Below are positions 3,210-20,049 of a stretch of 64,000 nt of DNA, piece after piece. Source of the stretch: an uncultured Hyphomonadaceae bacterium (GTDB lineage Bacteria > Pseudomonadota > Alphaproteobacteria > Caulobacterales > Hyphomonadaceae). The stretch covers positions 310,001 to 374,000 of the forward strand of contig CALKFG010000005.1 in the NCBI GenBank assembly GCA_938084575.1, read 5' to 3'. Position 1 is the first letter of the stretch. Each line of letters opens with the position of its first letter. Under the pieces are notes generated by a model. It did no database searches, was not told the origin of the DNA, and was given only the letters and a program-made list of their open reading frames with translations. The position numbers were made by a program, and so were the translations under genes.

Positions 3210-3431
3210 TCAGCTGGAGCTCAGAATGATGGCGGTCTGGCCTTCGGTGACCACATCCCCCTCGGCGATGTGCACTTCCTTCACCCGACCGGCGCCGGGC
3301 GCCTCGTAAGGCACTTCCATTTTCATCACCTCGAGGATGAAGACTTCCTGGCCGGCGGAGACCTCGTCGCCGGCTTTGACATGAAGCTTCCAGACCGTTC
3401 CTCCGGTCTCCAGAGTGATCGCAGTGGCCAT
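3210..3431 (-). CDS. Biotin carboxyl carrier protein (acyl-CoA carboxylase BCCP subunit)
   Basis: A 73-residue stand-alone biotinyl domain. The hallmark EVMKMEV is present, with Lys37 as the expected biotinylated residue, placed between the paired beta-hammerhead halves (GTVWKLHVKAGDEVSAGQ and GRVKEVHIAEGDVVTEGQ). It would carry carboxybiotin between a biotin carboxylase and the carboxyltransferase encoded 17 bases upstream in the same operon. The ATG at 3431 is preceded by AAAGGA at a good spacing. An in-frame upstream extension is low-complexity (AAAAAA) and overlaps the carboxyltransferase gene, so I reject it. No biotin carboxylase gene is in the window, so the complex must borrow one from elsewhere. 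Confidence 0.88.
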   Translation of the reverse strand: MATAITLETGGTVWKLHVKAGDEVSAGQEVFILEVMKMEVPYEAPGAGRVKEVHIAEGDVVTEGQTAIILSSS

Positions 3432-3448
3432 GTTGTGTCCTTTCGAGA

Positions 3449-4984
3449 TTAACGGGCGGCCGGGGGGATCAGCTGCGGCAGCAGCGGCTGTACCCGGTCG
3501 ATCCAGCGGCACAGCATGGGCCGGGTCTCGCGCGGGTCAATCAATTCATGCACGGCCAGCGCCTCTGCCCGCGGGAATGGCGATTGGCGCTGTGCCAGCA
3601 TTTCTTCCAGTTCGCGACGCTTGGCATCGGGGTCTTCGGCCGCGGCAATTTCACGGTGGAAAGCCACCGCAACCCCGCCCTCGACCGGCAGCGGCCCGCT
3701 TTCCGCAGACGGCCAGGCCAGGACATAGGCTTCTGGTCCATAATGGGCCGCCTGGGCAACGCCAAAGCTTTTGCGGACCATCACCGAGGCCCAGGGAACG
3801 GTGCTGCTGGCGGCGGCCAGCACGGTACGGGCGCCGTGCCGGATGGTGGAGTCCTGTTCGGCCTGCGACCCGATCATGAAGCCGGGTTCGTCGACAAAGG
3901 CGATGATCGGCAGATGGAAGGTTTCACACAGCTCGATAAAGCGTTGCGCTTTTTGCGCGCCATCCGCGGTCATGGACCCGGCGAGGTGGCGACAATCATT
4001 GCCCCAGACCCCTACGGGCTGCCCGTTCAGCCGGGCCAGGCCGGTGATCTGGCTGCGGCCATAGCCCCGGCCGATTTCGAAAAAACTGTTCAGGTCGACA
4101 ACGGCCTGCAGCACGCGGCGCATATCATAAGCCCGCCGCCGTTCGCGCGGGACAATGTCTGCCAGCAGGTCCTCGGCCCGGTCGACGGGATCGTCGCAGG
4201 GTCGGACAGGCGCAAGCTGGTGGACATTGTCCGGCATGAAAGCGAGAAATCGCTTGATCTGATCCAGCGCGCCCTGCTCGTCGGGGGCGCCATTGTCTAC
4301 CGTGCCGTTGCGGGCGTGGACGCCTGCGCCACCGAGGGCTTCCTTGGACAGTTTTTCGCCCATCGCCCGTTCAACCACTTTCGGGCCGGCGACCAGGATC
4401 TGGGCTGTTGTCTCTGACATGACGGAGAAATGGGACGCGACCAGCCGTGCGGCGGGCAGGCCTGCGACGGCGCCAAGCGCGGCGCTGGCCACGGGGACCT
4501 GTTTCAGGGTCTGCGCGACAGACCGAAACCGGGATGGGGCGAAGACGGGCGCCGGCAGACTGGGGCCGCCCGACCCGCCAACACTTCCGCCGGCGCCTTC
4601 GTGCAGCCGGACCAAAGGCAGCTTGTATTGCAGGGCCAGATCTTCTGTGTAGACCGACTTTCGCAGTCCCGCGGGGGATGGCGAACCGCCCTTGATGGTG
4701 AAGTCCTCGCCGCCAACGATCACGCGGCGTCCGTCAATTCTGGCAAAGCCGAGGACGAAATTGGCGGGCGTGAAGCCGGTCAGCTCGCCATTGGGACCAT
4801 GTTCGGGGGCGCCGGCACCCCGGCCAATCTCGTCAAAGCTGTCGGTGTCAACCAGCGCATCGATCCGCTCCCGCAGGGTCAGGCGGCCTTTGGCATGCTG
4901 CCGGGCAATACCGGCTTCGCCGCCCTGCTGGCGCGCCAGCTCCCGGCGTCTGTAGATGTCGTTGATTTCGTTTTCCCAGCTCAT
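3449..4984 (-). CDS. Acyl-CoA carboxylase carboxyltransferase subunit (PccB/MccB/AccD-like)
   Basis: A 511-residue biotin-dependent carboxyltransferase of the fused alpha/beta type. It transfers CO2 from carboxybiotin to an acyl-CoA. The N-terminal part has the usual basic opening (KGRLTLRERIDALVD) and a glycine-rich acyl-CoA site (EGAGGSVGGSGG). The C-terminal part shows the FVDEPGFMIG oxyanion region and AAHYGPEAYVLAWPSAE. The start at 4984 (MSWENEIND) is preferred over one 12 codons upstream because it matches the family opening. It lies 80 bases after the GST gene at 5065-5676 and 17 bases before the BCCP gene, all on one strand, so the three probably share a transcript from the promoter near 5750. 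The acyl substrate (propionyl, methylcrotonyl or another) cannot be told from the sequence. Confidence 0.88.
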   Translation of the reverse strand: MSWENEINDIYRRRELARQQGGEAGIARQHAKGRLTLRERIDALVDTDSFDEIGRGAGAPEHGPNGELTGFTPANFVLGFARIDGRRVIVGGEDFTIKGGSPSPAGLRKSVYTEDLALQYKLPLVRLHEGAGGSVGGSGGPSLPAPVFAPSRFRSVAQTLKQVPVASAALGAVAGLPAARLVASHFSVMSETTAQILVAGPKVVERAMGEKLSKEALGGAGVHARNGTVDNGAPDEQGALDQIKRFLAFMPDNVHQLAPVRPCDDPVDRAEDLLADIVPRERRRAYDMRRVLQAVVDLNSFFEIGRGYGRSQITGLARLNGQPVGVWGNDCRHLAGSMTADGAQKAQRFIELCETFHLPIIAFVDEPGFMIGSQAEQDSTIRHGARTVLAAASSTVPWASVMVRKSFGVAQAAHYGPEAYVLAWPSAESGPLPVEGGVAVAFHREIAAAEDPDAKRRELEEMLAQRQSPFPRAEALAVHELIDPRETRPMLCRWIDRVQPLLPQLIPPAAR

Positions 4985-5064
4985 CGAACAGGTTGTGCGA
5001 GGTTCAGCCGCCAATGTCAAAGCGGCTTCCGGTGCGGGGGCGAGTCCCGGACCGGCGGCGGCGC

Positions 5065-5676
5065 CTATTGCATCGTGATCGCGGTCTGGAAGGCCGGCCG
5101 GCTTTCAATCCGATGGATATAGGCTTTCAGATTGGTCATCTCATCCGACACCGATCCGATACGGTTGCTCATGAAGCAGGCATGGCCCAGCATGACATCC
5201 GCGGCAGAAAAGGCGCCAATCAGATAGTCCTTGCCCTCCAGCGCGGTTTCGATGGGGGCAAGGGCTTTGGACAGCAGGCGTTTGGCCTGGCCCAGGGCCG
5301 TCTCGTCCCGCCGCTCGGGTGGCAGGAGCAGCGTATTGACCACGACAATATTGACCGGGGGCATGACCATGCCTTCGCAATAATGAAACCATTGCAGATA
5401 GTCGGGAAAGAGCGGGGACTCGACGGCGGGCTTAAGACCGCCCTTTTTGTGACGTTCCAGCACATACTCGATAATCGCTCCGGACTCATAGATCGAGACA
5501 TCGCCGTCTTCCAGCACAGGCACGCGGCCCAAAGGATGGCGGGCGCGATGCGCCTCCGATTTCAAATCCTTGGGGTGGAAGGCCATGCGATTGAGGTCAT
5601 AGGGCAGGCCAAGCTCCTCGAGCAGCCAGACAATTCGTCCGGCCCTTGAATTCGGTGCAAAATGGAGTTTCAGCAT
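5065..5676 (-). CDS. Glutathione S-transferase family protein (short, canonical form)
   Basis: A 203-residue cytosolic GST. The N-terminal thioredoxin fold begins MLKLHFAPNSRAGRI, with Ser10 a candidate glutathione-activating residue, and contains the cis-proline motif GRVPVLEDG and the glutathione-contacting ESGAIIEYV near residues 55-75. The rest is an all-helical C-terminal domain with the N-capping-type sequence LIGAFSAADVMLG. The start at 5676 gives a full N-terminal beta strand; the frame is open upstream but reads into the promoter. First gene of a reverse-strand operon with the carboxyltransferase and BCCP, divergent from the DUF2855 gene across operator site 1. It is about half the size of the other three GSTs in the island and not obviously a close paralogue. 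Substrate unknown. Confidence 0.9.
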   Translation of the reverse strand: MLKLHFAPNSRAGRIVWLLEELGLPYDLNRMAFHPKDLKSEAHRARHPLGRVPVLEDGDVSIYESGAIIEYVLERHKKGGLKPAVESPLFPDYLQWFHYCEGMVMPPVNIVVVNTLLLPPERRDETALGQAKRLLSKALAPIETALEGKDYLIGAFSAADVMLGHACFMSNRIGSVSDEMTNLKAYIHRIESRPAFQTAITMQ

Positions 5677-5710
5677 GTTGGCCTTTCGGTTTTTGGCAGA
5701 GCGCCCTCGC

Positions 5711-5754
5711 TTGCCATGCCCTGACAGATAATATAATGGCAATTTAAATGTCAA
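5711..5754. promoter_or_regulatory. Divergent promoter with island operator site 1 (TGGCA-N7-TGTCA)
   Basis: TGGCA (5737-5741) and TGTCA (5749-5753) flank a 7-base A+T spacer. On the reverse strand a consensus -35 TTGACA (5754-5749) overlaps the right arm, with TATTAT (5733-5728) 15 bases on. On the forward strand TATAAT (5732-5737) abuts the left arm, with TTGCCA at 5711-5716 as a possible -35. A repressor bound here would block both the GST-carboxylase operon and the DUF2855-sulfatase-GST operon. The same dyad occurs at 12308 and 20030. Confidence 0.65.
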
Positions 5755-5898
5755 TTGATCCGGACGGGGATGGCAGCCGGCCGGGCGCACGCGCGGCCCG
5801 GCTTGAGGCAGGGTCACAGCGGAATGTCTCCGACACGGTCGCGACGGCGCCTGCGCCGCCGGTCGTGTCATGGTCAACAGGAAGAAAGGGAGAAGGTG

Positions 5899-6981
5899 AT
5901 GGGGTCTGTTCGCGAAGTCTGGGTCAACCGGAAGGATTTGCGCGACGCCAAAATTGTCGAGGCGTCGTCCTGCCCGCTTGAGGCTGGCCAGGTTCGCGTG
6001 GCGATCGACCGCTTCGGGCTGACGGCCAACAATGTCAGCTATGCCGTCAGCGGTGACATGATTGGCTATTGGAAATACTACCCCGCAGAAGGCGACTGGG
6101 GAAAGGTGCCCGTCTGGGGCATGGCCAATGTCGTCGAGTCCCGGTCGCAGGAGATTGCGGTGGGCGAACGCCTCTACGGCTTCTTCCCGATGGCCAGCGA
6201 GACCCTTCTGACCGTGGGCAAGGTCCACCCCGACGCGTTCATGGACGCAACCCCGCACCGCCAGGAGCTGCCGGCCCTGTACAATCAGTATCGCCGAACC
6301 TCGGGTGAGTCGGATTTTCTGGCTGGTCTTGAGGTCGAACGCTGTCTGCTCTTTCCCTTGTTCATCACGTCTTTTGTCCTGTTCGACTATCTCGAGGACA
6401 ATGACTATTTCGGCGCCGAACAGGTGCTGATTGGCTCGGTCTCCTCCAAGACGGGCTTCGGTCTCGCGAAACTGCTCAAGCAGGCGGGGAGCCGGAAAGT
6501 GATCGGGCTGACTTCCCCGGGCAATCTGTCATTCGTCAGTGCGCTGGGCTGCTGCGATCAGCTGGTGGCTTATGGCCAGGAGGCGGAGATCCGGGCCGAC
6601 CTGACGACCGCTTATGTCGACATGTCCGGCAACGGCCCGTTGACCGAGACCCTGCATCATAGGCTGGGCGAGCGGATGGTGGAAAGCTGCATGGTCGGGG
6701 CGACGCACTGGGACAACCGGGACCGGGGACCAGACCTGCCCGGCGCCCAGCCGACCTTCTTCTTTGCCCCGGCACATATCGGCAAGCGGGATCAGCAGTG
6801 GGGTCGCGGCGTTCTGTTCGACAAGGCCAGCCTGGCAAGTGCCGGGATCGCCATAGAGATTGCCGGCAAGGTCAGGGTCGAATGGATCCGGGGGGCCGGG
6901 GACACGGCCCGGATCTGGACCGAGATGCTCGACAATCAGGTGTCGCCTGATCGCGGGATCATGGCGGCCATCAGCGTTTAG
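5899..6981 (+). CDS. DUF2855 family protein
   Basis: A 360-residue protein with the features of DUF2855: LEAGQVRVAIDRFGLTANNVSYAVSGD near the start, WGMANVVESR, a LYGFFPMAS segment, and a central EQVLIGSVSSKTGFGLAKLLKQ that resembles the nucleotide-binding stretch of medium-chain dehydrogenase/reductases. From that resemblance a quinone-oxidoreductase-like fold is plausible, but the catalytic role of the family is not known to me. The ATG at 5899 follows GGGAGAAGGTG; the frame is open further upstream but that part overlaps the promoter. First gene of a five-gene forward operon (DUF2855, EF-hand, DJ-1/PfpI, sulfatase, long GST). No signal peptide, so probably cytosolic. Confidence 0.85.
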   Translation: MGSVREVWVNRKDLRDAKIVEASSCPLEAGQVRVAIDRFGLTANNVSYAVSGDMIGYWKYYPAEGDWGKVPVWGMANVVESRSQEIAVGERLYGFFPMASETLLTVGKVHPDAFMDATPHRQELPALYNQYRRTSGESDFLAGLEVERCLLFPLFITSFVLFDYLEDNDYFGAEQVLIGSVSSKTGFGLAKLLKQAGSRKVIGLTSPGNLSFVSALGCCDQLVAYGQEAEIRADLTTAYVDMSGNGPLTETLHHRLGERMVESCMVGATHWDNRDRGPDLPGAQPTFFFAPAHIGKRDQQWGRGVLFDKASLASAGIAIEIAGKVRVEWIRGAGDTARIWTEMLDNQVSPDRGIMAAISV

Positions 6982-6992
6982 GAGAGACGATT

Positions 6993-7313
6993 ATGAAGAT
7001 GAACACCCTAAGCTGTCTCGTCGCTTTTCTGGGCCTTTGCCTGCTGCCGTCGGGGCCAGCCAGTGCGCAGCAGAGCGATGCCGACCGGGCAAAGTCCCAG
7101 GCGAATTTTGCCAGCGCCGATGGCGATGGTGACGGGGCGCTCTCCCGTACGGAATTCGAGGTCTTTGTGAACGCCAATGCTGAGGACCGGATTGGGCGCG
7201 CCGGTCAGATTCGCCGGTTCGGAGCCTATGGCCGGGCCTTTTCGACGCTCGACAAGGATGGCGACGGCAAGGTGACCGGCCCTGAACTCTCGGCCGCGGC
7301 GCAGTCGCGCTAA
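6993..7313 (+). CDS. Secreted EF-hand calcium-binding protein
   Basis: A 106-residue protein with a signal peptide (residues 1-25, ending GPASA) and two canonical EF-hand loops. Loop 1 is D43-G-D-G-D-G ending at Glu54; loop 2 is D87-K-D-G-D-G ending at Glu98. All calcium-coordinating positions (1, 3, 5 and 12) are acidic. Probably periplasmic. It starts 11 bases after the DUF2855 gene with GGAGAG upstream. Sulfatases bind calcium, so a role near the sulfatase encoded two genes downstream is conceivable, but that is inference only. Confidence 0.88.
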   Translation: MKMNTLSCLVAFLGLCLLPSGPASAQQSDADRAKSQANFASADGDGDGALSRTEFEVFVNANAEDRIGRAGQIRRFGAYGRAFSTLDKDGDGKVTGPELSAAAQSR

Positions 7314-7342
7314 TCTTTTCGGGTCAGTCTACAGGAGTCTCC

Positions 7343-8188
7343 ATGTCTACGCCTCTGAAATTTCTTGTGCCGGGCCTGCTCGTTTTCGGCATGCTGGTCT
7401 GGCTGGGCCTGCCGCGCCTTCTGGTCGGACTGGGTTTCCACCGCCATTATGAGGTGCCCGCGCTGGACCTGTCTGGAAAACGGGCCCTGATTGTCGCGAC
7501 CAGCCATGCCACGCTGGGCGAGGGCGGGAAGCCGACCGGCGTCGCCGCGTCAGAGCTGACCGCCGCCTATTATGCGTTTGCGGATTCCGGCATGAGGGTC
7601 GATGTGGCCAGTATTCAGGGCGGACAGATCCCCATCGACCCCCAGACCTTACGCTGGCCGGTCATTTCACCCCCGGATCGACGCTACCTTAAAGATGAAG
7701 AGGCCGTGTCTCGCGTGGCCGGGTCCCTCAATATTTCCGACGTCGACGCAACTGGCTACGATATCGTTTATCTCGCTGGCGGCTGGGGCGCCGCCTATGA
7801 TTTCGGCCAGTCGGCCGCGCTGGGTCAGAAAATGGCCGACGCCTATGAGGCCGGGGCCATTGTCGGTGGCGTGTGTCATGGCCCGCTTGGCTTCCTGCAG
7901 GCGAAAAAGGCGGATGGCGGTCTTCTGATCGAGGGGCGCCGCCTGACCGGGGTCACCGACAAGCAGATACAGGAACTCGGCATTACCCAGACCCCCCTGC
8001 ATCCTGAGCGTGAATTGAGAGCGGCCGGGGTCATTTTTGAGGCAGATACGGCCTTCCGGGACCTGTTTGCCGATAAGACTGTGGTAGACGGACGCATTGT
8101 CACGGGGCAAAATCAGAACAGCGCAACAGAAACGGCGGTGACCATGATGCAGACCCTGATGGACCTTCCTGCAGGTCCGGACGCGTGA
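7343..8188 (+). CDS. Membrane-anchored DJ-1/PfpI-family protein (Hsp31/type 1 amidotransferase-like)
   Basis: A 281-residue protein. Residues 8-30 form one hydrophobic N-terminal segment (LVPGLLVFGMLVWLGLPRLLVG), so the catalytic domain should face the periplasm. The DJ-1/PfpI domain carries the nucleophile elbow GGVCHGP with Cys178-His179, and an upstream EGGKPTGVAASE motif typical of the Hsp31-like subgroup that includes glutathione-independent glyoxalases and chaperones. It ends with a PfpI-type GQNQNSATETA motif. The stop overlaps the start of the sulfatase gene (GTGA), which implies translational coupling. Possible roles are aldehyde or glyoxal detoxification or protein repair; the sequence does not decide between them. 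The membrane anchor is unusual for the family. Confidence 0.85.
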   Translation: MSTPLKFLVPGLLVFGMLVWLGLPRLLVGLGFHRHYEVPALDLSGKRALIVATSHATLGEGGKPTGVAASELTAAYYAFADSGMRVDVASIQGGQIPIDPQTLRWPVISPPDRRYLKDEEAVSRVAGSLNISDVDATGYDIVYLAGGWGAAYDFGQSAALGQKMADAYEAGAIVGGVCHGPLGFLQAKKADGGLLIEGRRLTGVTDKQIQELGITQTPLHPERELRAAGVIFEADTAFRDLFADKTVVDGRIVTGQNQNSATETAVTMMQTLMDLPAGPDA

Positions 8189-9945
8189 TCCGCGTCGCTC
8201 TGCTGGCGGTTCTCTGCCTGCTGTCAGGCCGGGGTCTGCTGGCTGAGACTCCTGTGGACCGTCCCAATATTGTGATCATCATGGCCGATGATGCGGCCCT
8301 GATGGATTTCGGCATCTATGGCGGGGAAGCCGAGACGCCGAATATCGATGCTCTGGCCGAGACTGGAGTGATGTTCACCCAGTACCGGACCTCGCCCCTA
8401 TGTTCCCCGACCCGGGCCATGCTGCTGACTGGGATGGACAATCACCTCACCGGCGTGGCGACCATTCCCGAAGTCCTGCCCAAGGATCATGTCGGCCAGC
8501 CAGGCTACAGCATGGCATTTGAACCCGGCGTGCTGACCCTGGCTGACCGGCTCCGGGCTCTGGGATACCGCACCCTGATGAGCGGAAAATGGCACCTGGG
8601 CGAAGAGGCCTCGGAGATGCCTCAGGCTCATGGATTTGACCGCTCCTTTGCCCTGGCCGCCTCGGGCGCCGACAATTGGGAAGACAAGTCCTACATGCCC
8701 TATTATGTCGACGCGCCCTGGTTTGAGGACGGGGTGGAGACAAGTCTGCCGGAGGATTTCTATTCCTCCCGCTTCATCGTCGACAAGATGATTTCGTATC
8801 TGGAAGCGACCGATCCCGAACAGCCCTTTCTGGCTTATCTGCCCTTTCAGGCCATTCATATTCCGGTTCAGGCGCCTGCAGAGATTACGGCGAAATATAA
8901 GGGCCGCTATGATGACGGCTGGCATATGCTGCGCCAGGCCAGACACCAGCGGGCGCAGGCGCTTGGCCTGGTCGCAGAGGGGACACCGCTTGCGCCGATG
9001 CCGGACACTGCCCGCGACTGGCATGGATTGAGCGATGAGGAGCGGTCTGTTTATGCCGCCCGCATGGAAGTCAATGCCGCGATGATGGACGCGATGGACC
9101 AGCATATTGGCCGGTTCGTCGCCTATCTCAGGGACCGGGGTGAGTTGGAGAAAACCGTTTTTGTTATCACCTCGGATAATGGACCGGAGCCGTCTCGCGG
9201 GGACCAGAGTGCCTTGCTGACCTTCTGGATGAAGCTGAATGGCTATCATATCGATGGCGAGGGCATTGGCGAAGTTGGCAGCTGGGGCTTTATCGGGCCA
9301 GAATGGGCGACGGCGGCGGCTGCCCCCGGGGCCCTGTTCAAATTCTACGCCACGGAGGGCGGCATCCGGGCGCCGCTGATCATTTCCGGTCCGGGCCTGT
9401 CACCCCGTCGCGTCGATGCAGCGGCCATGGTGACCGACATCACGCCGACACTTCTGGACTGGATCGGGGCACCGCCGGCCCCGGAGACGTCTCGCCCCAT
9501 CACGGGCCGTAGCCTCATGCCGCTTCTGACCGGGGCGGCAGACGCCGTTTATGCGCCCGATGAACCGCGCGCCATAGAGGTGTCAGGGAATGCGGCCCTG
9601 TATCTGGGCGACTATAAGATCACCCGGAGCATTCCCCCGGTCGGGGACGGCCAGTGGCGCCTGTTCAACATGGTCGATGATCCCGGTGAAACCCGTGATC
9701 TCAGCGCGGAGGCGCCCGAAGCCCTTGCGGAACTTCTCGTCGCTTATGATCAGTATGCCGAGGAGATGGGTGTGCTGGAGATGCCGGCAGGCTATGATTC
9801 CACCCGCCAGATCATGCTGAATATGACAGATCGGATGTGGAAACGCTATCGCGTCTGGATTGGCCTGATCGCGCTGGTCCTGATCGCGGGTCTGTTCGGT
9901 CTCGTCCGCCTTGGGGTCGGGCTGGTCCGGCGGTCCCGGGGATGA
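8185..9945 (+). CDS. Sulfatase, exported and C-terminally anchored (motif CSPTR)
   Basis: A 586-residue type I sulfatase, hydrolysing sulfate esters with a formylglycine nucleophile. It has an N-terminal signal sequence (residues 1-20), the metal site DRPNIVIIMADDAALMD (Asp35-Asp36), and Cys73-S-P-T-R followed by AMLLTG, the C-x-P-x-R signature whose Cys is converted to formylglycine. MSGKWHLGE and FVITSDNGPEP supply further active-site residues. A C-terminal hydrophobic helix (about 560-580, GLIALVLIAGLFGLVRLGVG) followed by Arg residues should tether it to the inner membrane. The GTG start at 8185 overlaps the preceding stop, and its own TGA overlaps the next ATG. No formylglycine-generating enzyme is in the window. 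Substrate unknown. Confidence 0.92.
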   Translation: MIRVALLAVLCLLSGRGLLAETPVDRPNIVIIMADDAALMDFGIYGGEAETPNIDALAETGVMFTQYRTSPLCSPTRAMLLTGMDNHLTGVATIPEVLPKDHVGQPGYSMAFEPGVLTLADRLRALGYRTLMSGKWHLGEEASEMPQAHGFDRSFALAASGADNWEDKSYMPYYVDAPWFEDGVETSLPEDFYSSRFIVDKMISYLEATDPEQPFLAYLPFQAIHIPVQAPAEITAKYKGRYDDGWHMLRQARHQRAQALGLVAEGTPLAPMPDTARDWHGLSDEERSVYAARMEVNAAMMDAMDQHIGRFVAYLRDRGELEKTVFVITSDNGPEPSRGDQSALLTFWMKLNGYHIDGEGIGEVGSWGFIGPEWATAAAAPGALFKFYATEGGIRAPLIISGPGLSPRRVDAAAMVTDITPTLLDWIGAPPAPETSRPITGRSLMPLLTGAADAVYAPDEPRAIEVSGNAALYLGDYKITRSIPPVGDGQWRLFNMVDDPGETRDLSAEAPEALAELLVAYDQYAEEMGVLEMPAGYDSTRQIMLNMTDRMWKRYRVWIGLIALVLIAGLFGLVRLGVGLVRRSRG

Positions 9946-11057: not shown

Positions 11058-11072
11058 GACCGGGGCGCGGGC

Positions 11073-12212: not shown

Positions 12213-12305
12213 GCTGAAGGCGGTCCGGCCCGAGCCGGGAACAGGGTCTGGAGCCGAAGCATCATGGGCAGGCCTTTGGGGTTCGATTGCACTTGCGATT
12301 ATGAT

Positions 12306-12326
12306 AATGACATCTAAGGTGTCATT
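12306..12326. promoter_or_regulatory. Island operator site 2 (AATGACA-N7-TGTCATT)
   Basis: A perfect dyad with 7-base arms, AATGACA (12306-12312) and TGTCATT (12320-12326), around TCTAAGG. It lies between the divergent long-GST gene (start 12212) and the haloalkane dehalogenase gene (start 12368), in an A+T-rich patch holding candidate -10 elements for both directions. The core TGACA-N7-TGTCA has the same spacing as sites 1 and 3. Confidence 0.7.
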
Positions 12327-12367
12327 AAAATTTGTCTGCCGCAAGTGGCAAGGAGGGAGATCAGGTC

Positions 12368-13318: not shown

Positions 13319-14613
13319 TCCTGAAAATACTGAAGAAGGTTATAATGGGACGAATGGTCAGTCTTGAGCGCCGCGATACCCACCGTGCCAATGCCGAACG
13401 GGCGCGCCAGACTGCTGGCCTGCCGCATCTGGTCGATTATTTCCACGAGGCTGGCGATCCTTATTCCCACCTCATGGTCCAGATGCTGCCGGACATCTGC
13501 CGGCGCTATCAGATCGAGCTGCGGGTTCATCTGGTGCCGCCGCCGGCGGACTCTGCCGCCCCCGACCGCCAGCGGCTGGATGTCTATGGCCGCAGGGACG
13601 CTGCGCTGCTGGCTGGCAAGGCCGGCCTGTCCTTTGAGGATCCCGGCGTCGCGCTTAGGGCGGAGCGTCTTCATGCCGCCAATCTCGCTCTTGCCGACCA
13701 TCTGGGCAAGGCAGATTTCCTCGACCAGGCCCGGGCGATCGGTGACGCGCTCTGGCATAATCAGCCGTTTCCCGGTGACAAGGCGCCCGAGGCCCTTCTC
13801 GCCGACCTTCTGGCTGAGGGACGCGCCCGCCGCGACAGCCTCGGTCACTATCTTGGGGGAACACTGCATTATGCGGGGGAATGGTATTGGGGTCCGGACC
13901 GGCTTCATTATCTCGAGGATCGGTTGCAGGGGCTCGGGGCGATGCGGGGAGCCGCCCCGCACGCGCCGGTCTTCACGCCACCGGCCCTCGACGTGACTGG
14001 CAATGTCGTCCTTCCCTGCCCCGGGCTGGAGCTGCACTGGTACCTGTCTTTTCGAAGTCCTTACACTGCGATTGTCGCCGACCGCGTCAAGGCCCTGGCC
14101 GACGCCTACGGGGCCGATCTGAAGCTCCGTTTCGTCCTGCCTATGGTGATGCGGGGGCTGCAGGTCCCCCGCCAGAAGGGCGCCTATATCATGGGCGACG
14201 TCGCCCGCGAGGCGCACCGCCTTGGAACGCCTTTCGGGGATATTTCCGATCCCGTCGGAAAGCCGGTTGAGCGGGGCTATGCCGTTCTCAACCGCGCCAT
14301 TGAGCTGGGCCTGGGCTATGCCTTTGTGCAGTCCTTTTTAACCGGGGTTTGGGCCGAGGGGGTGGATGCCGGATCGGATCGTGGCCTGAAGCGGCTGGTG
14401 CGGCGCGCAGGTCTCGACTGGGCAGAGATGAAGCCGCTTCTCGCCGACAACAGCTGGCGCCAGACAGAAGCCCGAAATCAGGCCGAGCTGCTCAGCCACG
14501 AGCTTTGGGGCGTCCCCAGTTTCCGGGTCGGAGACGTGGCGGTCTGGGGACAGGACCGGCTATGGGTCATAGAGGACGCCCTCAAGGCGGCGACATCAAA
14601 GGGAGACGCTTGA
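13315..14613 (+). CDS. Tandem DsbA-fold protein: 2-hydroxychromene-2-carboxylate isomerase/kappa-GST-like
   Basis: A 432-residue protein made of two DsbA-like thioredoxin domains. Domain 1 (about 35-225) has the motif GDPYSHL at 47-53. Domain 2 (about 238-428) has LSFRSPYTAIVAD (Ser248-Pro249-Tyr250), the S-P-Y signature of kappa-class GSTs and 2-hydroxychromene-2-carboxylate isomerases, and a GVPSFRVGDVAVWGQDRL tail in which Val-Pro-Ser is the cis-proline loop. The usual enzyme has one such domain of about 200 residues, so this is a duplication or fusion. Domain 1 lacks an equally clear motif and may have diverged. Glutathione-dependent isomerase or transferase activity is inferred. ATG 13315 overlaps the dehalogenase stop (ATGA). 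Confidence 0.83.
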   Translation: MILKILKKVIMGRMVSLERRDTHRANAERARQTAGLPHLVDYFHEAGDPYSHLMVQMLPDICRRYQIELRVHLVPPPADSAAPDRQRLDVYGRRDAALLAGKAGLSFEDPGVALRAERLHAANLALADHLGKADFLDQARAIGDALWHNQPFPGDKAPEALLADLLAEGRARRDSLGHYLGGTLHYAGEWYWGPDRLHYLEDRLQGLGAMRGAAPHAPVFTPPALDVTGNVVLPCPGLELHWYLSFRSPYTAIVADRVKALADAYGADLKLRFVLPMVMRGLQVPRQKGAYIMGDVAREAHRLGTPFGDISDPVGKPVERGYAVLNRAIELGLGYAFVQSFLTGVWAEGVDAGSDRGLKRLVRRAGLDWAEMKPLLADNSWRQTEARNQAELLSHELWGVPSFRVGDVAVWGQDRLWVIEDALKAATSKGDA

Positions 14614-14614
14614 T

Positions 14615-15079
14615 ATGGATGTGACGAATGAGGTGATACCGACCGATCCCGCGCGGCTGCAGCAGATGATGGAAAAAGGGCCAGACGGACCGGTCTTCAT
14701 GATCAACCTTCTGAAATTCAAGGACAAGGCCGCCTATGAGGATGGCCGGGAGACCATGCTGAGTGGTCGGGAGGCTTATGCTCTTTATGGTCAGGCGGTT
14801 TCCGGCATCCTGCCAAAATTTGGCGGGGCTTTTTTCTTCGCCGCGGACGTGACCTTCCTGGCCCTGGGCCAGGTCGAGGAGCTGTGGGACGAGGTCGCCA
14901 TCGCGGTTTATCCCGAACGCCGGGCCATGGTTGAGATGAGCCTGTCGGAGGTGTGGCAGGCCGCCTCGGTCCACCGCACGGCGGGTCTTGCCGGGCAGCT
15001 GAATATAGAAACCGTGTTGCAGAAGGGCGTGTCCGACCTGCCCTGGATGCAGCCCCTGTTGGAAGGATTAGGTGCATGA
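14615..15079 (+). CDS. DUF1330-like dimeric alpha/beta-barrel protein
   Basis: A 154-residue protein with the DUF1330 pattern: GPVFMINLLKFKDKAAYEDG near the start, a middle strand reading DVTFLALGQVEELWDEVAIAVYPE, and a conserved ERRAMVEMSLSEVWQAA helix. Proteins of this ferredoxin-like dimeric barrel group are small and include monooxygenase-like and isomerase-like members, but DUF1330 itself has no firm function. It starts one base after the stop of the tandem DsbA-fold gene, and its stop overlaps the next start, so it is an integral member of the four-gene operon. Confidence 0.78.
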   Translation: MDVTNEVIPTDPARLQQMMEKGPDGPVFMINLLKFKDKAAYEDGRETMLSGREAYALYGQAVSGILPKFGGAFFFAADVTFLALGQVEELWDEVAIAVYPERRAMVEMSLSEVWQAASVHRTAGLAGQLNIETVLQKGVSDLPWMQPLLEGLGA

Positions 15080-16164
15080 TCTGGTTTAAAAGAGGTCTGA
15101 TCGCACTGATCGGCGTCGTCCTCATTCTGGTCGTCGGATTTAACCTGTTCAAGAAACAGATCGCCGAGCGCGCTTTTGCGCGGGGTGTGGAGCGCAATGC
15201 CGGGATGGATCGGAGCGCGAACCTTCCCGACGGGCTGCATGTCTATTTGTGTGGCACCGGATCGCCCATGGCCGATCCGCGTCGGGCCGGCCCCTGTCTT
15301 GGCATCCTGGCCGGGCAAAAAGCCTATGTGTTCGATGTCGGGTCGGGCGGATCCCGGAATCTGGGCAGCATGGGGTTCCCCATGCCCCGGCTGCAGGGGG
15401 TCTATCTGACACATTTGCACTCCGACCATATTGATGGTCTTGGCGAACTCATGCTGCAATCCTGGATCGGCGGCGCCCGCTCCACCCCGACCCCGATCCA
15501 TGGGCCGGTCGGGACGGCGGACGTGGTGGACGGTTTCAACATGGCCTATCGCATCGACAGCACCTATCGGGTCGCCCATCATGGGACAGGGATCGCCAAT
15601 CCGGCCGGCTTTGGCGGGCAGGCGGTCGAGATCACACTGCCGGCGGGTCCGGCCGGCCAGAGCGTTGTGTTTGACGATGGCGACCTGCGGATCACCGTTC
15701 TGAGAGTCGATCATGCCCCGATTGACCCTGCCTTTGGCTACCGGGTCGACTATAAGGACCGGTCGGTCTCGATCAGTGGCGATACGATTTACCATCCCGG
15801 TTTTGTCGCGGCCTCGCAGGGGGTCGACCTGATGCTGCACGAGGCGCTGAACAAGGAGATGGTTTCCGCCATTGGCGCAAGGCTGGCAGAGCGCGGCCAG
15901 GCCAGAGGCGCCAAGATTTTTTCCGATATTCTGGACTATCACGCCACGCCGGAAGATGCGGCCCGCGCCGCACAGCAGGCCGGGGCCGGCGAGCTGGTGC
16001 TCTATCATTTGGTTCCGCCCTTGCCGGTGGACCTGATCGAGGTGGCCTTTCTCGGGGATGCAAAATCCTATTTCGACGGGCCCATTACAGTGGGACGCGA
16101 CGGGATGCTGATCAGCCTGCCGGCCGGGTCAGACAGAGTGATCCGCGCGAGGCCGGGATTCTGA
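15076..16164 (+). CDS. Membrane-anchored metallo-beta-lactamase-fold hydrolase
   Basis: A 362-residue protein with one N-terminal transmembrane helix (residues 6-23) and an MBL domain carrying THLHSDHIDGL, in which His113, His115, Asp117 and His118 give the H-x-H-x-D-H metal motif. Later metal and structural residues include VDHAPIDPAFGYRVDY, ISGDTIYHPGF and LYHLVPP. The order resembles the RNase Z/arylsulfatase-like MBL subgroup. With the helix as a signal anchor the domain should face the periplasm. It ends the operon that starts with the dehalogenase gene and is convergent with tetR. Whether it cuts an ester, a lactone or a sulfate ester cannot be decided from the sequence. Confidence 0.88.
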   Translation: MIWFKRGLIALIGVVLILVVGFNLFKKQIAERAFARGVERNAGMDRSANLPDGLHVYLCGTGSPMADPRRAGPCLGILAGQKAYVFDVGSGGSRNLGSMGFPMPRLQGVYLTHLHSDHIDGLGELMLQSWIGGARSTPTPIHGPVGTADVVDGFNMAYRIDSTYRVAHHGTGIANPAGFGGQAVEITLPAGPAGQSVVFDDGDLRITVLRVDHAPIDPAFGYRVDYKDRSVSISGDTIYHPGFVAASQGVDLMLHEALNKEMVSAIGARLAERGQARGAKIFSDILDYHATPEDAARAAQQAGAGELVLYHLVPPLPVDLIEVAFLGDAKSYFDGPITVGRDGMLISLPAGSDRVIRARPGF

Positions 16165-16194
16165 AGGCCCGTCGGGCCACAGTTTGCCGGCATC

Positions 16195-16821
16195 TCAGGC
16201 CTGGGTCACGTCGGCAATCAGTCCCCGCAACATCAGGCGCAGCGTGCCCTTGGCCTCCTCGCCGGACATGTTCTGGTCCTGTCTCAGGCGGCGCCACGTC
16301 GCGAAAGACAGCGTGACCTCCAGCGCGGCAAAAAGTTGTCGGTCGGCCACGATTTCCCCGGGCAGTATGGCGGTCAGTGTGGACCGGAGCATTTTGACGT
16401 CTTTCTGGTACTGTTTGCGCAGGAAATCGGACTGAAAATAGCGCAGGGTCATGCAGACCTTCATTGGGAAAACGCTCTCATAAATATCGGCGCGTTTTTC
16501 AACACACTCCATGAGACGTTCGCGCCAGGTCGCACTCTCATACGGTGCCAGCAGCTTCGGCATGATGGCCGTGGCAAGCGCTTCGGTCATTTCATTGTAG
16601 ATGCTGTCCATATCTTCAAAATGGCGGAATACGGTCCTGAGCCCGACATTGGCCCGGTCTGCGACGCTGGCCGCGCTGGGCGACATATTGCCTTCGCCCA
16701 GAAGGTCGAACAGGGCTTCTATGATCCGGCGCCGGCTGCGGCCGCTGCGTAGCCGACGACCATCCTCCGTAACAGCCTCAAATATCGGCCAGGGGCTTTT
16801 GGTTTGGGTCGCTGTGCTCAT
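16195..16821 (-). CDS. TetR/AcrR-family transcriptional regulator
   Basis: A 208-residue TetR-type regulator and the only DNA-binding protein of the island. The helix-turn-helix lies at about residues 49-70 (SAASVADRANVGLRTVFRHFED) after a basic arm (RSGRSRRRIIEALFDLL). The remainder is a helical ligand-binding domain. It is the last gene of the reverse operon GST-sulfatase-membrane protein-TetR, whose promoter carries the dyad at 20027-20049, so autoregulation is likely. The same dyad core at 12308 and 5737 suggests that it controls the whole 3.2-20 kb island. The ligand is presumably a substrate or intermediate of the pathway. Confidence 0.9.
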   Translation of the reverse strand: MSTATQTKSPWPIFEAVTEDGRRLRSGRSRRRIIEALFDLLGEGNMSPSAASVADRANVGLRTVFRHFEDMDSIYNEMTEALATAIMPKLLAPYESATWRERLMECVEKRADIYESVFPMKVCMTLRYFQSDFLRKQYQKDVKMLRSTLTAILPGEIVADRQLFAALEVTLSFATWRRLRQDQNMSGEEAKGTLRLMLRGLIADVTQA

Positions 16822-16828
16822 GCCGGGC

Positions 16829-17269
16829 TTATCCTTTGGATGCTCGCACCGACATCATAAACCCGATTGCGAATAAGGGAATAATCAACAGCGTCGCGTA
16901 GGCCTCCGGAGGATGGTGATCGCCGCCTTTCGGGCCCCAGAAATGCCAGCCATGCGCCAGACGTTCCAGGGTCAGCAGCCCCAGCGCAAGTGGCACGAGG
17001 CTGCGGTACCTGACAAGGATCGCCAGCAGTATCAACCCCCAGACCAGCTGGGTCACGCCGGCCCAGGCCATCAGGGCGATCACCCGGCGGCCATGCGGGC
17101 TGTCGGGGTCGAGCCCCATGCCAGCGATGCTGTTGGCGCCGCCATCGGGCAGGAAGGCATGGATACAGGCGGGGATGAGGGTGGCGACAATGGCGAAGCC
17201 GAGAATAAAAAGGGCGCTGCGGCCGCCCCGATAGGCGGCATTGGTGGCGGTGGGGAAGATCGTCAACAT
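16829..17269 (-). CDS. Small four-helix integral membrane protein, unknown
   Basis: A 146-residue hydrophobic protein with about four transmembrane segments (near residues 18-40, 64-85, 87-105 and 124-142) and short polar loops. The conserved-looking loop LERLAHGWHFWGPKGGDHHPPE is rich in His and Trp and could bind a metal or ligand. I do not recognise the family. The ATG at 17269 lies 11 bases after the sulfatase stop, but GGAGG sits only two bases before it, so a GTG at 17272 or coupling to the sulfatase is possible. Between sulfatase and tetR in the operon. Transporter-like function cannot be claimed from one small four-helix protein. Confidence 0.72.
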   Translation of the reverse strand: MLTIFPTATNAAYRGGRSALFILGFAIVATLIPACIHAFLPDGGANSIAGMGLDPDSPHGRRVIALMAWAGVTQLVWGLILLAILVRYRSLVPLALGLLTLERLAHGWHFWGPKGGDHHPPEAYATLLIIPLFAIGFMMSVRASKG

Positions 17270-17280
17270 CACCTCCGGGA

Positions 17281-18954
17281 TCAGTTTGGCCAGATGACGT
17301 AGTCGTCTTCCGGCGTCGCAATCTGGTCGACCGTCTTATCCACCAGGATCGGGCTGGCAATCCTGTGCGGGTAAAGTGGTTCAACTGCGTTGGCAAAATG
17401 GTCATCGAGCAGGCCCTGCAGCTCCGCCACCTTATCCAGGCGTGCCGCCGCAAGATTGACCTCTTCAGTCGGGTCTGTCGCCAGATCGAACAGCCAGGTC
17501 TTGTCCTGTATGCCATCGACCTGCAGCTTCCAGTCGCCCGCCCGCACGACCCGATAAAGCCCGGACTGCCAGAAGATCGCATCATTCGGACGTCGGATCA
17601 CACCTTCGCCCGTGGCCGCAGGCAGGATGTTCTGACCATCAATGACCCGGTCGCCGGGAAGCGCTGCACCCGCTGCGGCGGCGAGCGTGGGGAGCAGATC
17701 GATATGCGCGACCGGCGCATCGACGACCGTGCCGGGTACAATCCGCTGAGGCCATTTGACAAACATCGGCACGCGGATGCCACCTTCGAACAGCGTGATT
17801 TTCCAGCCGCGATAGGGCGCATTGACCTCAGGCAGGCCGATATAACCCGCACCGCCATTGTCACTGCTCAGCACGATAAGGGTATTGTCGGCCAGGCCTT
17901 CCGCTTCAAGCTTGTCCATGACGCGGCCAACGCTGCGATCAAGAGCGCGGATCATGGCCGCATAAACCCGCAGCCGATGCGGTTCCAGATCACCGACAGC
18001 ATCATAATCTTCCCGGGTTGCCTGCAGGGGCGTATGCGGGGCCCAGTGGGCCAGGTAGAGAAAGAAGGGCCGGTTCTTATTGGCCTCTATGACCTTCAGG
18101 CTTTCATCGGTCCACCAATCGGTGAGATAGCCACCAGGCTTGAACGGCGCGCCGCCATTGAATGATGCGGCATAGGACATGGCGGCCCAGAGGAATTTAT
18201 CGATCGGGTCAAAGTCGAGCTTGGCATTGACCCCTGCGGGATCGTCCTCTGGCAGGAACAGGCCGCTGTGCATCAGCAGGCTTTCGTCGAACCCCTGCGC
18301 ATTGGGCAGAAAGTCGGCCCGGCGTCCGAGATGCCATTTTCCGATATGGACGCTGTGATAGTCCTGCTGCTGCAGCAACTCGGCAATGGTGATTTCAGAG
18401 CCCGGCAGGCCCTGGTCATCATAGGCCAGCCCATCTTCATCAACGCCGCGATTGGGTTCTATTTTTGGCAATGTGCCGCGGTCCATGGCATTTCCGATCA
18501 AAGAGATCGCCGTGCTCATGCCGTCCGGTGTGGGGGTGAATTCAAAGCCTGTGCGGGTTGGATAGCGTCCGGTCATCAGCATGGCCCGCGACGGCGCGCA
18601 GGTGCCGGTCCCGGAATAGGCCTGCGTAAAGATAGCCCCTTCGGCACCGAGCCGGTCGATGTTTGGCGTCGGGACGCGGCCGTCGGCGACACCCCCCCCG
18701 AAGGCGGAGAGGTCATTATAGCCAAAATCATCAAGCAGAATGAATACGATATTGGGCGGGCGTTCTGTTGCGGAGACCACGGCTTCCGCCGGGCCTTGCT
18801 GCCAGACCACCGGTTGATGCGGCGCGATGGCAACGCGGTTGGCTTTAATCCGGTTGAGAAGAAGATGGGTCAGGAGCGTGGTGCGGTTGGACCAGGCCAG
18901 AGCCCCGCTGCCAAGTAGAAGAATGAGCAGACCAATGATGACTTTTTTCGACAT
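17281..18954 (-). CDS. Arylsulfatase-type sulfatase, membrane-anchored (motif CAPSR)
   Basis: A 557-residue type I sulfatase. Residues 5-22 are an N-terminal signal anchor. PNIVFILLDDFGYNDLSAFGG supplies the metal aspartates, and Cys119-A-P-S-R then AMLMTGRYPTRTG is the classic formylglycine signature. HIGKWHLGR and LIVLSSDNGGAGYIG complete the active site. A G-x-x-P-Y-R-G-W-K and GGIRVPMFVKWP segment matches arylsulfatases. It is preceded by the long GST gene with a 3-base gap. It differs from the island's other sulfatase in motif, length and anchoring (N-terminal here, C-terminal there), so the two are unlikely to be recent duplicates and may act on different sulfate esters. Confidence 0.93.
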   Translation of the reverse strand: MSKKVIIGLLILLLGSGALAWSNRTTLLTHLLLNRIKANRVAIAPHQPVVWQQGPAEAVVSATERPPNIVFILLDDFGYNDLSAFGGGVADGRVPTPNIDRLGAEGAIFTQAYSGTGTCAPSRAMLMTGRYPTRTGFEFTPTPDGMSTAISLIGNAMDRGTLPKIEPNRGVDEDGLAYDDQGLPGSEITIAELLQQQDYHSVHIGKWHLGRRADFLPNAQGFDESLLMHSGLFLPEDDPAGVNAKLDFDPIDKFLWAAMSYAASFNGGAPFKPGGYLTDWWTDESLKVIEANKNRPFFLYLAHWAPHTPLQATREDYDAVGDLEPHRLRVYAAMIRALDRSVGRVMDKLEAEGLADNTLIVLSSDNGGAGYIGLPEVNAPYRGWKITLFEGGIRVPMFVKWPQRIVPGTVVDAPVAHIDLLPTLAAAAGAALPGDRVIDGQNILPAATGEGVIRRPNDAIFWQSGLYRVVRAGDWKLQVDGIQDKTWLFDLATDPTEEVNLAAARLDKVAELQGLLDDHFANAVEPLYPHRIASPILVDKTVDQIATPEDDYVIWPN

Positions 18955-18957
18955 GTC

Positions 18958-20001
18958 TTAAGCCTCTGCACAGAAGAGCAGGCCACAGCCCGATCCGGAC
19001 AATAACGCATCGACAGCGCCACGTTCATTGCCTGAAAGCCGGGCATAATCGTCACGCAGCCAGGTGAGGCATTTGGCCTGGTATTTGAAAACGGGCTGTG
19101 TCCAGGGTCGCCCGTCAATCTCGGTAGTAAAGCTTTCCTCGCCGGCCGCGACGGCCGCGGAATTTGCCAGCATGGCCGGGGCGTAGGTCCGGCCGATTTC
19201 CGCCAGAAGCGGCCTCAGCGCAAGCGAGGCCTCTTCTGCCGTGAACCAGTCTGTCTCCGCCGGGTTCAGGCCACACAGATCGTCCATCAGATCGATCCAG
19301 GCGCGGACCCGTGGGGAGATCTTTGCCGTAATGGCAGACGAGGTGGGTTCGACAATGGCCAGCTGGGTCAGTTGCCCAAACAGGGCGAAATCGGCGGATG
19401 AGGGCCGCCCCCCGAGGACAAATCCCTTCTGTTGCAGCAGGTCATCGAGAAGCCGGATCAGGCGGTCATAGGCGTCCTCAATGGTTCTCGCCGTGACCGA
19501 ATTGGAGCCAACGACATATAACCGGTCGATCTGGCGTTTGGCAAAATAATCGGCCATCTCCGCCGCCTTGTCTTCGGGCGCTGTGTTCATCCCCCAATAG
19601 ACCAGGAGGGGTGCGGCATTTGTCCAGTCTGCCTGATGGGCCCAGCGGAAATGAAACATCGCCTTGGTCAGCCATTCATCGGCATAATCTTCGATCAGGT
19701 CATTGATGAATCTGAGAGTTGGATCCTGCGGGATCACCGACCTGCCGGCATAGTCTGTTTCCAGGCGCCGGATGATTGGCGTCGAATCGGTGACCGGCAC
19801 CAGCGCGCCTGTCTCGCCGTCCGGGAAAAAGAAGATCGGCAGCAGGCGAACCGGCGGTGATGGATACCCCTCGGGAATCTGACCATTTCCCCAAAAGACG
19901 GAATAGGGAATGTGGCGATACCGCAAAACACCGATCATTTTGCGCGTATAGGGAGATCCGGGCGCGCCGGTCAGTTCCAGCCTCTGGGGTCGTGATGCCA
20001 T
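18958..20001 (-). CDS. Long glutathione S-transferase-like protein (paralogue C)
   Basis: A 347-residue member of the same long-GST group as the proteins at 9942-11057 and 11073-12212. The shared opening is LTGAPGSPYTRKMIGVLRYRHIPY, followed by DSTPIIRRLE and the block IEDYADEWLTKAMFHFRWAH; LGGRPSSADFALFGQ is the GST-C motif. The start at 20001 (MASRPQRLE) is chosen because AGGAGG lies 9 bases upstream. An in-frame ATG at 20028 sits on operator site 3 and lacks a ribosome-binding site. First gene of the operon ending in tetR. Confidence 0.88.
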   Translation of the reverse strand: MASRPQRLELTGAPGSPYTRKMIGVLRYRHIPYSVFWGNGQIPEGYPSPPVRLLPIFFFPDGETGALVPVTDSTPIIRRLETDYAGRSVIPQDPTLRFINDLIEDYADEWLTKAMFHFRWAHQADWTNAAPLLVYWGMNTAPEDKAAEMADYFAKRQIDRLYVVGSNSVTARTIEDAYDRLIRLLDDLLQQKGFVLGGRPSSADFALFGQLTQLAIVEPTSSAITAKISPRVRAWIDLMDDLCGLNPAETDWFTAEEASLALRPLLAEIGRTYAPAMLANSAAVAAGEESFTTEIDGRPWTQPVFKYQAKCLTWLRDDYARLSGNERGAVDALLSGSGCGLLFCAEA

Positions 20002-20026
20002 GGGGAAAGGTCCTCCTGAAACTTTC

Positions 20027-20049
20027 ATATGGCATTTCTAATGCCATAT
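20027..20049. promoter_or_regulatory. Island operator site 3, perfect 10-bp inverted repeat
   Basis: Two perfect arms, ATATGGCATT (20027-20036) and AATGCCATAT (20040-20049), surround TCT. The core TGGCA-N7-TGCCA has the spacing of sites 1 and 2. It overlaps the -10 and likely start point of the promoter for the GST-sulfatase-membrane-tetR operon, a classic repression position for a TetR protein. Confidence 0.8.

Follow-up and report, generated by a model that had tools for sequence, protein, structure and literature searches.

The window analyzed here is a stretch of 64,000 nucleotides from an uncultured Hyphomonadaceae bacterium (GenBank assembly GCA_938084575.1, contig CALKFG010000005.1, positions 310,001 to 374,000), and all positions are counted from its first letter. 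It contains an island (3210-20049) in which one operator-like dyad, TGRCA-N7-TGYCA, precedes operons coding for two sulfatases (SULF1, SULF2), three long glutathione transferases (GSTs; LGST1 to LGST3), a haloalkane dehalogenase relative (DHA), and a TetR-family regulator. The dyad and the gene families behind it recur in relatives together with the tetR gene. We conclude that this is a real alphaproteobacterial regulon and that it is probably under TetR control. As an explanation of the whole, a TetR-controlled regulon for a sulfated organic molecule agrees best with the sequences, and we consider it very likely. Its predicted core comprises the formylglycine sulfatases, the formylglycine-generating enzyme (FGE), long GSTs, a protein similar to 2-hydroxychromene-2-carboxylate (HCCA) isomerase (HCCA2), DUF1330 and metallo-beta-lactamase (MBL)-fold proteins, DHA, and the DUF2855/DJ-1 proteins. 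A TonB receptor and an SdsA1-type alkylsulfatase sometimes appear to join them.

A pattern search found exactly three dyads in the window, at the positions named in an earlier note on this DNA (Table 1). The hand estimate of about 0.2 chance matches given there agrees with the mean of 0.20 dyads in dinucleotide shuffles of the window (n = 100), only one of which reached three. The host genome (2.33 Mb, 96% complete), whose nearest named relatives are mostly labeled Henriciella, Hyphomonas, or Hyphomonadaceae, has 23 places which match the bare pattern, and two which match the reversed-pattern control. The sites were scored with a matrix built from 124 distinct sites near tetR orthologues of genomes other than its own. 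The 20 bare matches outside the island score from -13.8 to 18.0 (the best being L015 at 18.0 and L002 at 14.8), compared with at least 30.0 for the island sites (Table 1), and were rejected as regulon members on these scores. Their low scores result mostly from missing flanks, A/T flanks being part of the consensus dyad of the relatives. The earlier note had named many equally good sites at unrelated genes as evidence that would count against a regulon; such sites are many for the bare pattern, and none of them scores equally. The flanked pattern WWW-TGRCA-N7-TGYCA-WWW occurs three times in the genome, always inside the island (control: 0). With one mismatch and WW flanks, 30 places were found, four of them exact, and the fourth exact one (C13:36316) has a matrix score of 3.5.

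The dyad was then followed in other genomes (G numbers denote genomes compared, L numbers retrieved loci; the gene maps of relatives stem from a simple open reading frame [ORF] caller and BLAST, not from annotation). Orthologues of tetR were accepted at E < 1e-20, a cut-off chosen after viewing the match list. Among 20 tetR-orthologue loci of relatives, 19 have a dyad, mostly ahead of the same genes, the exception being L060. Dyads with spacer 7 number 125 in the 80 named tetR loci, 69 of which have one or more, compared with 0-11 for each of the spacers 3-6 and 8-13, seven for the everted pattern, and two for the reversed one. A chance origin of the dyads was rejected on the basis of the shuffles, this spacer specificity, the matrix scores, and the flanked-pattern scan. 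Among 150 genomes, including its own, TetR and the flanked dyad are both present in 70 and both absent in 65, with TetR alone in six and the dyad alone in nine; in its own genus, the corresponding numbers are 21, 8, 0, and 0, so that both are present or both absent in 29 of 29 genomes. SULF2, called at 500 bits (a cut-off also chosen after viewing the list), behaves similarly: both it and TetR in 69 genomes, neither in 69, TetR alone in seven, SULF2 alone in five. The search for the gene set with the same dyad in related genomes, which the earlier note had suggested, thus found shared gene families behind the dyad, and the matrix, spacer, and co-occurrence tests agree with its proposal that one dyad unites the units and belongs with this TetR. 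Genome G016 has two tetR orthologues (L052 and L053, 68% and 63% identical to that of the window), each of which has dyads and a gene set of its own. Five loci with Hyphomonas- or Henriciella-like clusters (L087, L088, L089, L097, and L078) come from metagenome-assembled genomes labeled Acidobacteria, Sulfopaludibacter, or Crocinitomicaceae, labels which are probably wrong.

As had been claimed, dyads 1 and 2 both separate divergent genes. At dyad 1, the left half shares its first base with a TATAAT on the plus strand, and the right half gives TTGACA when read on the minus strand, which is that of GST1. The likely LGST3 ATG, preceded by AGGAGG, is 28 bp downstream of dyad 3, and a -10-like GATAAT on the minus strand ends at 20048, adjoining the dyad. 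Each of the three has counterparts in relatives: strong dyads precede ADH-DUF2855-DJ1 units in G016, G007, and G006 and DHA-HCCA2-DUF1330-MBL in G024 and G007, and the counterpart of dyad 3 is kept ahead of LGST3-SULF2 (e.g., in L052 and L054-L056). In G024 and G007, a divergent long GST gene lies about 1.1 kb from the dyad on the side opposite to DHA, with two small ORFs in between in G007. Paired dyads within one promoter region were seen at L195 (623/695, 72 bp apart) and L184 (5975/6054, 79 bp apart), in G006 and G123.

The AlphaFold2 model of the TetR protein (pLDDT 87.7) has ten helices and no strands, which gives an all-helical ligand-binding domain. Judged by their titles, the 50 structures listed as its matches are all TetR-type regulators; the best are about 20% identical, and KstR structures are among them. 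In the predicted recognition helix (61-68), R62, V64, F65, R66, and F68 do not vary among 39 orthologues with identities as low as 38%, which fits a reading of the same operator by all of them. A palindromic operator-like site at the promoter of tetR's own operon (dyad 3) is likewise kept in relatives. We infer that the protein binds the three dyads.

The content of the regulon was assessed by clustering ORFs from 83 sequences (80 named loci, the window, L055, and L067), some of which represent one genome twice (e.g., L067 and L091); cluster families were named by Pfam from one representative each, and the small clusters are not all identified. The largest counts are those of TetR (79 of 83), SULF2 (65), cluster C2 (50), DUF1330 (49), and MBL (45, its occurrence resting on this clustering and on the survey of 142 dyads described below), followed by SULF1 (40), HCCA2 (38), LGST3 (37), DHA (25), and memA (23). 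Carriers of the gene set include genomes with the names Hyphomonas, Henriciella, Blastomonas, and Sphingomonas, as well as relatives of these. A TonB-dependent receptor lies behind the dyad in L078, L079, and L082 (Pfam was checked on the L079 copy), an enoyl-CoA hydratase relative occurs in the clusters of three loci, and one P450 is found beside a dyad (L182). Twenty dyad places were also fetched in relatives. At one of them (L187), the genome carries its tetR and the usual genes; the other 19 lie away from tetR, and 14 of them front a regulon member or a plausible new one. These are SULF1 (L171, L182, L183), SULF2 (L181), LGST3-SULF2 (L176), an SdsA1-type alkylsulfatase (L172), ADH-DUF2855-DJ1 (L174), DHA-HCCA2-DUF1330-MBL (L173), DHA-DUF1330 (L177), MBL and HCCA2 (L184), a long GST (L179, L190, and L189, where the contig end leaves only a fragment), and a distant relative of HCCA2 with a weak match (L186). 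The 17-kb island had been proposed as a unit; one dyad does unite its operons, but the island is not a fixed unit, the operons being often scattered in relatives. The regulon need not form one island, and the dyad appears to be what holds its scattered operons together.

Sulfatases are the theme which the earlier note had put forward, and they are indeed central. SULF1 and SULF2 match PF00884 with 191.6 and 183.4 bits (cut-off 25), and the formylglycine motif is kept in 38 of 40 SULF1 and 63 of 65 SULF2 cluster members, the four exceptions being short sequences. The closest solved proteins are the Pseudomonas aeruginosa arylsulfatase (1hdh, 1.7e-113) for SULF1 and a carrageenan sulfatase (6prm, 3.4e-71) for SULF2. 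Because both window sulfatases have a Cys-type formylglycine motif, the presence of an FGE matters, and cluster C2, found in 50 of the 83 sequences, is this sulfatase-modifying enzyme (PF03781, 202.5 bits for the one representative). The window has no FGE; one is encoded elsewhere in the genome (C2:315736, PF03781, 239.1 bits). A third sulfatase (C2:347142-348749) is 45% identical to SULF2 and has an inner bare dyad (L005) scoring 7.6. No exact dyad accompanies 27 of the 30 SdsA1-like genes retrieved; a strong one (29.5) lies just upstream of the gene in G001, and weaker exact ones are found at G020 (10.2) and G019 (17.1). In G027, the SdsA1-type gene is split over contigs; its first part (C10) is immediately preceded by a dyad with a score of 28.4. 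The copy in the window genome (C6:257701) has no dyad. As few of the retrieved genes have strong dyads, SdsA1-type membership in the regulon is occasional.

On this basis, a TetR dimer would bind (A/T)TGRCA-N7-TGYCA(A/T) on the core promoters of its own and the other operons and block transcription until it is released by a small-molecule ligand (probably the pathway's substrate or one of its early products). The N-termini of SULF1, SULF2, MBL, and the DJ-1 protein are hydrophobic when judged by eye, which points to a place of action at the membrane or outside it; SULF1 has a signal-peptide-like N-terminus and a C-terminal hydrophobic segment. Membrane-anchored, FGE-activated sulfatases would remove sulfate outside the cytoplasm, and the GSTs, the HCCA-like protein, DHA, and DUF2855/DJ-1 would process or detoxify the freed reactive, possibly halogenated core. 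The compartments, the order of steps, and the class of substrate are inferred; the set fits a sulfated lipophile, electrophilic or halogenated, which yields reactive intermediates.

The proposal of halogenated substrates depends mainly on DHA. Its closest solved protein is indeed a haloalkane dehalogenase (4mj3, DmrA, 1.1e-76), and the Asp nucleophile, the catalytic acid Asp, and the His are present. When aligned to 4mj3, the five catalytic positions read D-W-F-D-H in the window copy and D-W-W-D-H in 21 of the 25 cluster members, with Phe at the third place in the window copy and three others. Where two halide-binding Trp are expected, the window copy has W and F, the third position being that of a DmrA Trp which we take to be halide-binding. 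Because of this Phe, the window protein may not be a dehalogenase.

As to the nature of the sulfated molecule, a sulfated aromatic (e.g., bromophenols or phenylpropanoids) or a sterol, rather than an aliphatic lipid, is a serious contender, to which we assign somewhat less than an even chance. The solved proteins nearest to SULF1 and HCCA2 are an arylsulfatase and an aromatic-pathway isomerase, and steryl-sulfatase and KstR are among the weaker matches of SULF2 and TetR, respectively. Against this stand the SdsA1-type alkylsulfatase behind a strong dyad in two genomes, the enoyl-CoA hydratase relative in three loci, and the lack of a ring-cleaving enzyme among the families identified near dyads, which were not searched for such enzymes systematically. 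It is rather unlikely that the regulon, while real, serves a general response to electrophiles (enals, enones, and aldehydes) and not one sulfated compound. The GSTs, DJ-1, and the ADH of relatives behind the dyad, which resembles curcumin/enone reductase (below the family cut-off, 321 vs. 440), would suit such a response; two sulfatases and FGE among the most constant members do not, and the TonB receptor or alkylsulfatase of some relatives is a better fit to nutrient uptake.

A bolder candidate, to which we give only a small chance, is a pathway for algal chlorosulfolipids or another sulfated and halogenated class, induced via TetR. In such a pathway, the sulfatases would cut the sulfate esters, GSTs and dehalogenases would remove chlorine, and the chain would enter fatty-acid-like breakdown. 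The idea matches chemistry to enzyme type and nothing further, and aromatics, sterols, or an electrophile response fit nearly as well or better. Judged by genus, the carriers presumably include both marine and freshwater bacteria. No description of chlorosulfolipid breakdown was found among the literature matches listed. Passages of a 2026 report describe the putative identification, in coastal water of the Pacific, of chlorosulfolipids bearing as many as 11 chlorines, and cite their earlier discovery in freshwater chrysophytes (PMC13413282).

Several points weigh against a TetR-controlled regulon. The TetR protein itself scores 19.8 bits for PF00440, below the cut-off of 24. The Fisher value for TetR versus the flanked dyad in the 150 genomes (5e-25) overstates independence, as Fisher values do here, because the genomes are related. 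The flanked dyad is missing from six of the 76 TetR-positive genomes (three belong to other families), and 11 of the 80 named tetR loci have no dyad. Five of the 19 unlinked dyads (L175, L178, L180, L185, and L188) front no recognized member. Ten DUF2855 relatives (59%-63% identical) have no dyad in the retrieved stretch, six of them in TetR-negative genomes and four in TetR-positive ones (G002, G014, G017, and G020). The FGE gene at C2:315736 is unlinked, and no strong dyad lies beside it. In 279 loci, 135 of the 142 distinct dyads scoring at least 24 have the start of a listed family no more than 350 bp away, compared with 744 of 4000 positions drawn at random from loci longer than 8 kb; this contrast is only indicative because ADH, TonB, enoyl-CoA hydratase, and SdsA1 joined the list after they had been sighted beside dyads and because the set includes loci fetched for TetR or the dyad.

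Flanked dyads in nine of the 74 TetR-negative genomes also weigh against TetR control and would favor another factor which binds the dyad, TetR being a mere neighbor. One of the nine, G096, has ten of them, perhaps owing to base composition or to another regulator. An NtrC-type response regulator beside the cluster in seven sequences of the Blastomonas/Sphingomonas group is a further point in favor of such a factor. We nevertheless regard it as improbable, given the perfect match of dyad and TetR within the genus and the dyad upstream of the tetR open frame in L137, L140, and L143 (90-104 bp) and in L147 and L148 (381 and 745 bp), and given that no regulator besides the NtrC-type protein was found among the Pfam-identified clusters (small clusters not all being identified). 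A reading that needs no dedicated repressor, in which the dyads are chance palindromes or promoter elements whose halves resemble TTGACA and TATAAT, is very improbable: a half-site plus flank can read TTGACA and a TATAAT overlaps the left half of dyad 1, against which stand the restriction to spacer 7, the absence of the dyad from TetR-less members of the genus, and the low scores of the other 20 bare matches.

Regulation by TetR through a dyad operator is a known kind of system, and what appears new is its content. The KstR regulon of mycobacteria, which serves cholesterol use, is governed by a TetR-family regulator with a palindromic operator ahead of several operons, some of them scattered. 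The regulon described here is alike in these respects and differs in gene content and in its TGRCA-N7-TGYCA operator, with no steroid genes among the families identified. With FGE-dependent S1 sulfatases (SulfAtlas S1; P. aeruginosa AtsA, carrageenan sulfatases), it shares PF00884, the CxPSR/CxPTR motif, and FGE in many clusters, whereas here one operator links the sulfatases to GSTs and a dehalogenase relative. The DHA proteins are nearly full-length relatives of haloalkane dehalogenase subfamily I (DmrA 4mj3, DhlA) with Asp nucleophile and His, from which the window copy and three relatives differ by Phe in place of the second halide-binding Trp. The SdsA1-type (S3) genes of G001 and G027 follow a strong dyad, unlike the copy in the window genome. 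No description of the gene set or operator was found among the matches listed from the mainly open literature covered, which included few subscription journals. The regulon groups poorly known proteins (long GSTs, HCCA2, DUF1330, DUF2855, and the membrane-type MBL) into one testable unit and suggests an undescribed pathway for a sulfated, possibly halogenated natural compound in many aquatic bacteria. Its operator gives a handle for finding further members, and the dyad promoter offers a reporter for sulfated or halogenated natural compounds which the carriers sense and consume.

Table 1. Genes and operator-like dyads of the island (window positions).
Feature	Positions	Strand	Description and basis
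Biotin carrier protein	3210-3431	-	PF00364; outside supported regulon
Carboxyltransferase	3449-4984	-	PF01039; outside supported regulon
GST1	5065-5676	-	Ordinary GST, possible regulon member; PF02798
Dyad 1	5737-5753		Between GST1 and DUF2855; matrix score 37.2
DUF2855 protein	5899-6981	+	PF11017
EF-hand protein	6993-7313	+	PF00036
DJ-1/PfpI protein	7343-8188	+	N-terminal hydrophobic segment; PF01965
SULF1	8185-9945	+	Arylsulfatase-like S1 sulfatase; PF00884, CSPTR
LGST1	9942-11057	+	Long GST; GST domains
LGST2	11073-12212	-	Long GST; GST domains
Dyad 2	12308-12324		Between LGST2 and dehalogenase-like gene DHA; matrix score 30.0
DHA	12368-13318	+	Haloalkane dehalogenase relative; NCBIfam NF002043 above cut-off, 4mj3
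HCCA2	13315-14613	+	Two-part protein, second half HCCA isomerase/kappa-GST-like; PF01323
DUF1330-like protein	14615-15079	+	PF07045, weak (18.9 bits, cut-off 23)
MBL	15076-16164	+	MBL-fold hydrolase, RNase Z/arylsulfatase-like, hydrophobic N-terminus; PF12706
TetR	16195-16821	-	TetR-family regulator, candidate repressor; AlphaFold2 model and TetR-type structure matches
memA	16829-17269	-	Small membrane-type protein, 146 aa, between SULF2 and tetR; start read from sequence
SULF2	17281-18954	-	S1-type formylglycine sulfatase, hydrophobic N-terminus; PF00884, CAPSR
LGST3	18958-20001	-	Long GST, 347 aa; PF13417 and PF13410 above cut-off
Dyad 3	20030-20046		Promoter of LGST3-SULF2-memA-tetR operon; matrix score 33.1

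The left arm of the island, proposed as a GST-carboxylase-biotin carrier unit of the regulon, lost its carboxylase part upon comparison. In 139 loci (L052-L190), the only match of the carboxyltransferase at E < 1e-15 is that of its own genome, and the biotin carrier protein has no match. Carboxyltransferase orthologues were retrieved from eight other genomes (72%-89% identity). In the nearest (G024), a degenerate dyad (score 24.3) lies between ADH-DUF2855 and GST1-carboxyltransferase; the retrieved stretches of G015, G020, G019, G049, G036, and G013 (74%-79%) have no dyad, the G015 contig ending 367 bases upstream and G019 being partly masked as N, and neither has that of G037, where the gene is in two pieces (72%-81%). 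With one of eight orthologues showing a dyad-like site, and that a degenerate one, the carboxylase and the biotin carrier protein were rejected as conserved members and left out of the regulon because the orthologues lack dyads and the 139 loci lack matches. GST1, which is divergent across a strong dyad also in G016, is a possible member. In G016, G007, and G006, a strong dyad is followed by an ADH gene and then by a DUF2855 relative (64%-67% identity); an 84% identical one (G024) follows the degenerate dyad, and a 68% identical one (G027) lies at a contig end with no strong dyad. The enone-reductase-like ADH gene which precedes DUF2855 in G024, G016, G007, and G006 is missing from the window (5753-5899), where dyad 1 leads straight to DUF2855.

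DJ-1/PfpI relatives occur in the dyad-led units of L174, L144, L146, L290, and L291. Relatives of LGST1 immediately follow dyads in L179 and L190; in L144 and L146, they lie downstream of SULF1. In the 139 loci, the EF-hand protein matched only the re-fetched loci of its own genome.

The gene names of the earlier note could mostly be retained; the start of LGST3 and the span of the membrane protein were revised, the DUF1330 match stays below its cut-off, and the HCCA isomerase-like match (PF01323; 2imd, 4e-8) is confined to the second half of HCCA2. For LGST3, 20001 is the probable start and not 20028. Its model (pLDDT 92.2) matches structures with a GST fold, with low TM-scores of 0.29-0.51 relative to the query, and one of its four weak sequence matches to the PDB is a GST; by domains and fold, it is a predicted glutathione transferase. 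The ORF 16818-17585 was rejected as the membrane protein since it crosses the end of SULF2 in another frame, and 16829-17269 (memA, no Pfam match) was used. Among solved proteins, MBL is about equally close to PNGM-1 (6j4n, 3e-14) and an arylsulfatase (8gyg, 4e-14), and it contains HLHSDH. Passages of PMC5066984 characterize S4 arylsulfatases by at least 30% identity to P. carrageenovora AtsA together with HxHxDH.

A gene for a GH16 glycosidase with a long proline run (20162-21280) adjoins dyad 3 on its upstream side and shares the strand. It was rejected as a regulon member because of this position and because no dyad precedes it. GH16, which L074 and L085 likewise have near LGST3, is found in three of the 83 sequences and is the sole polysaccharide gene noticed beside the clusters.

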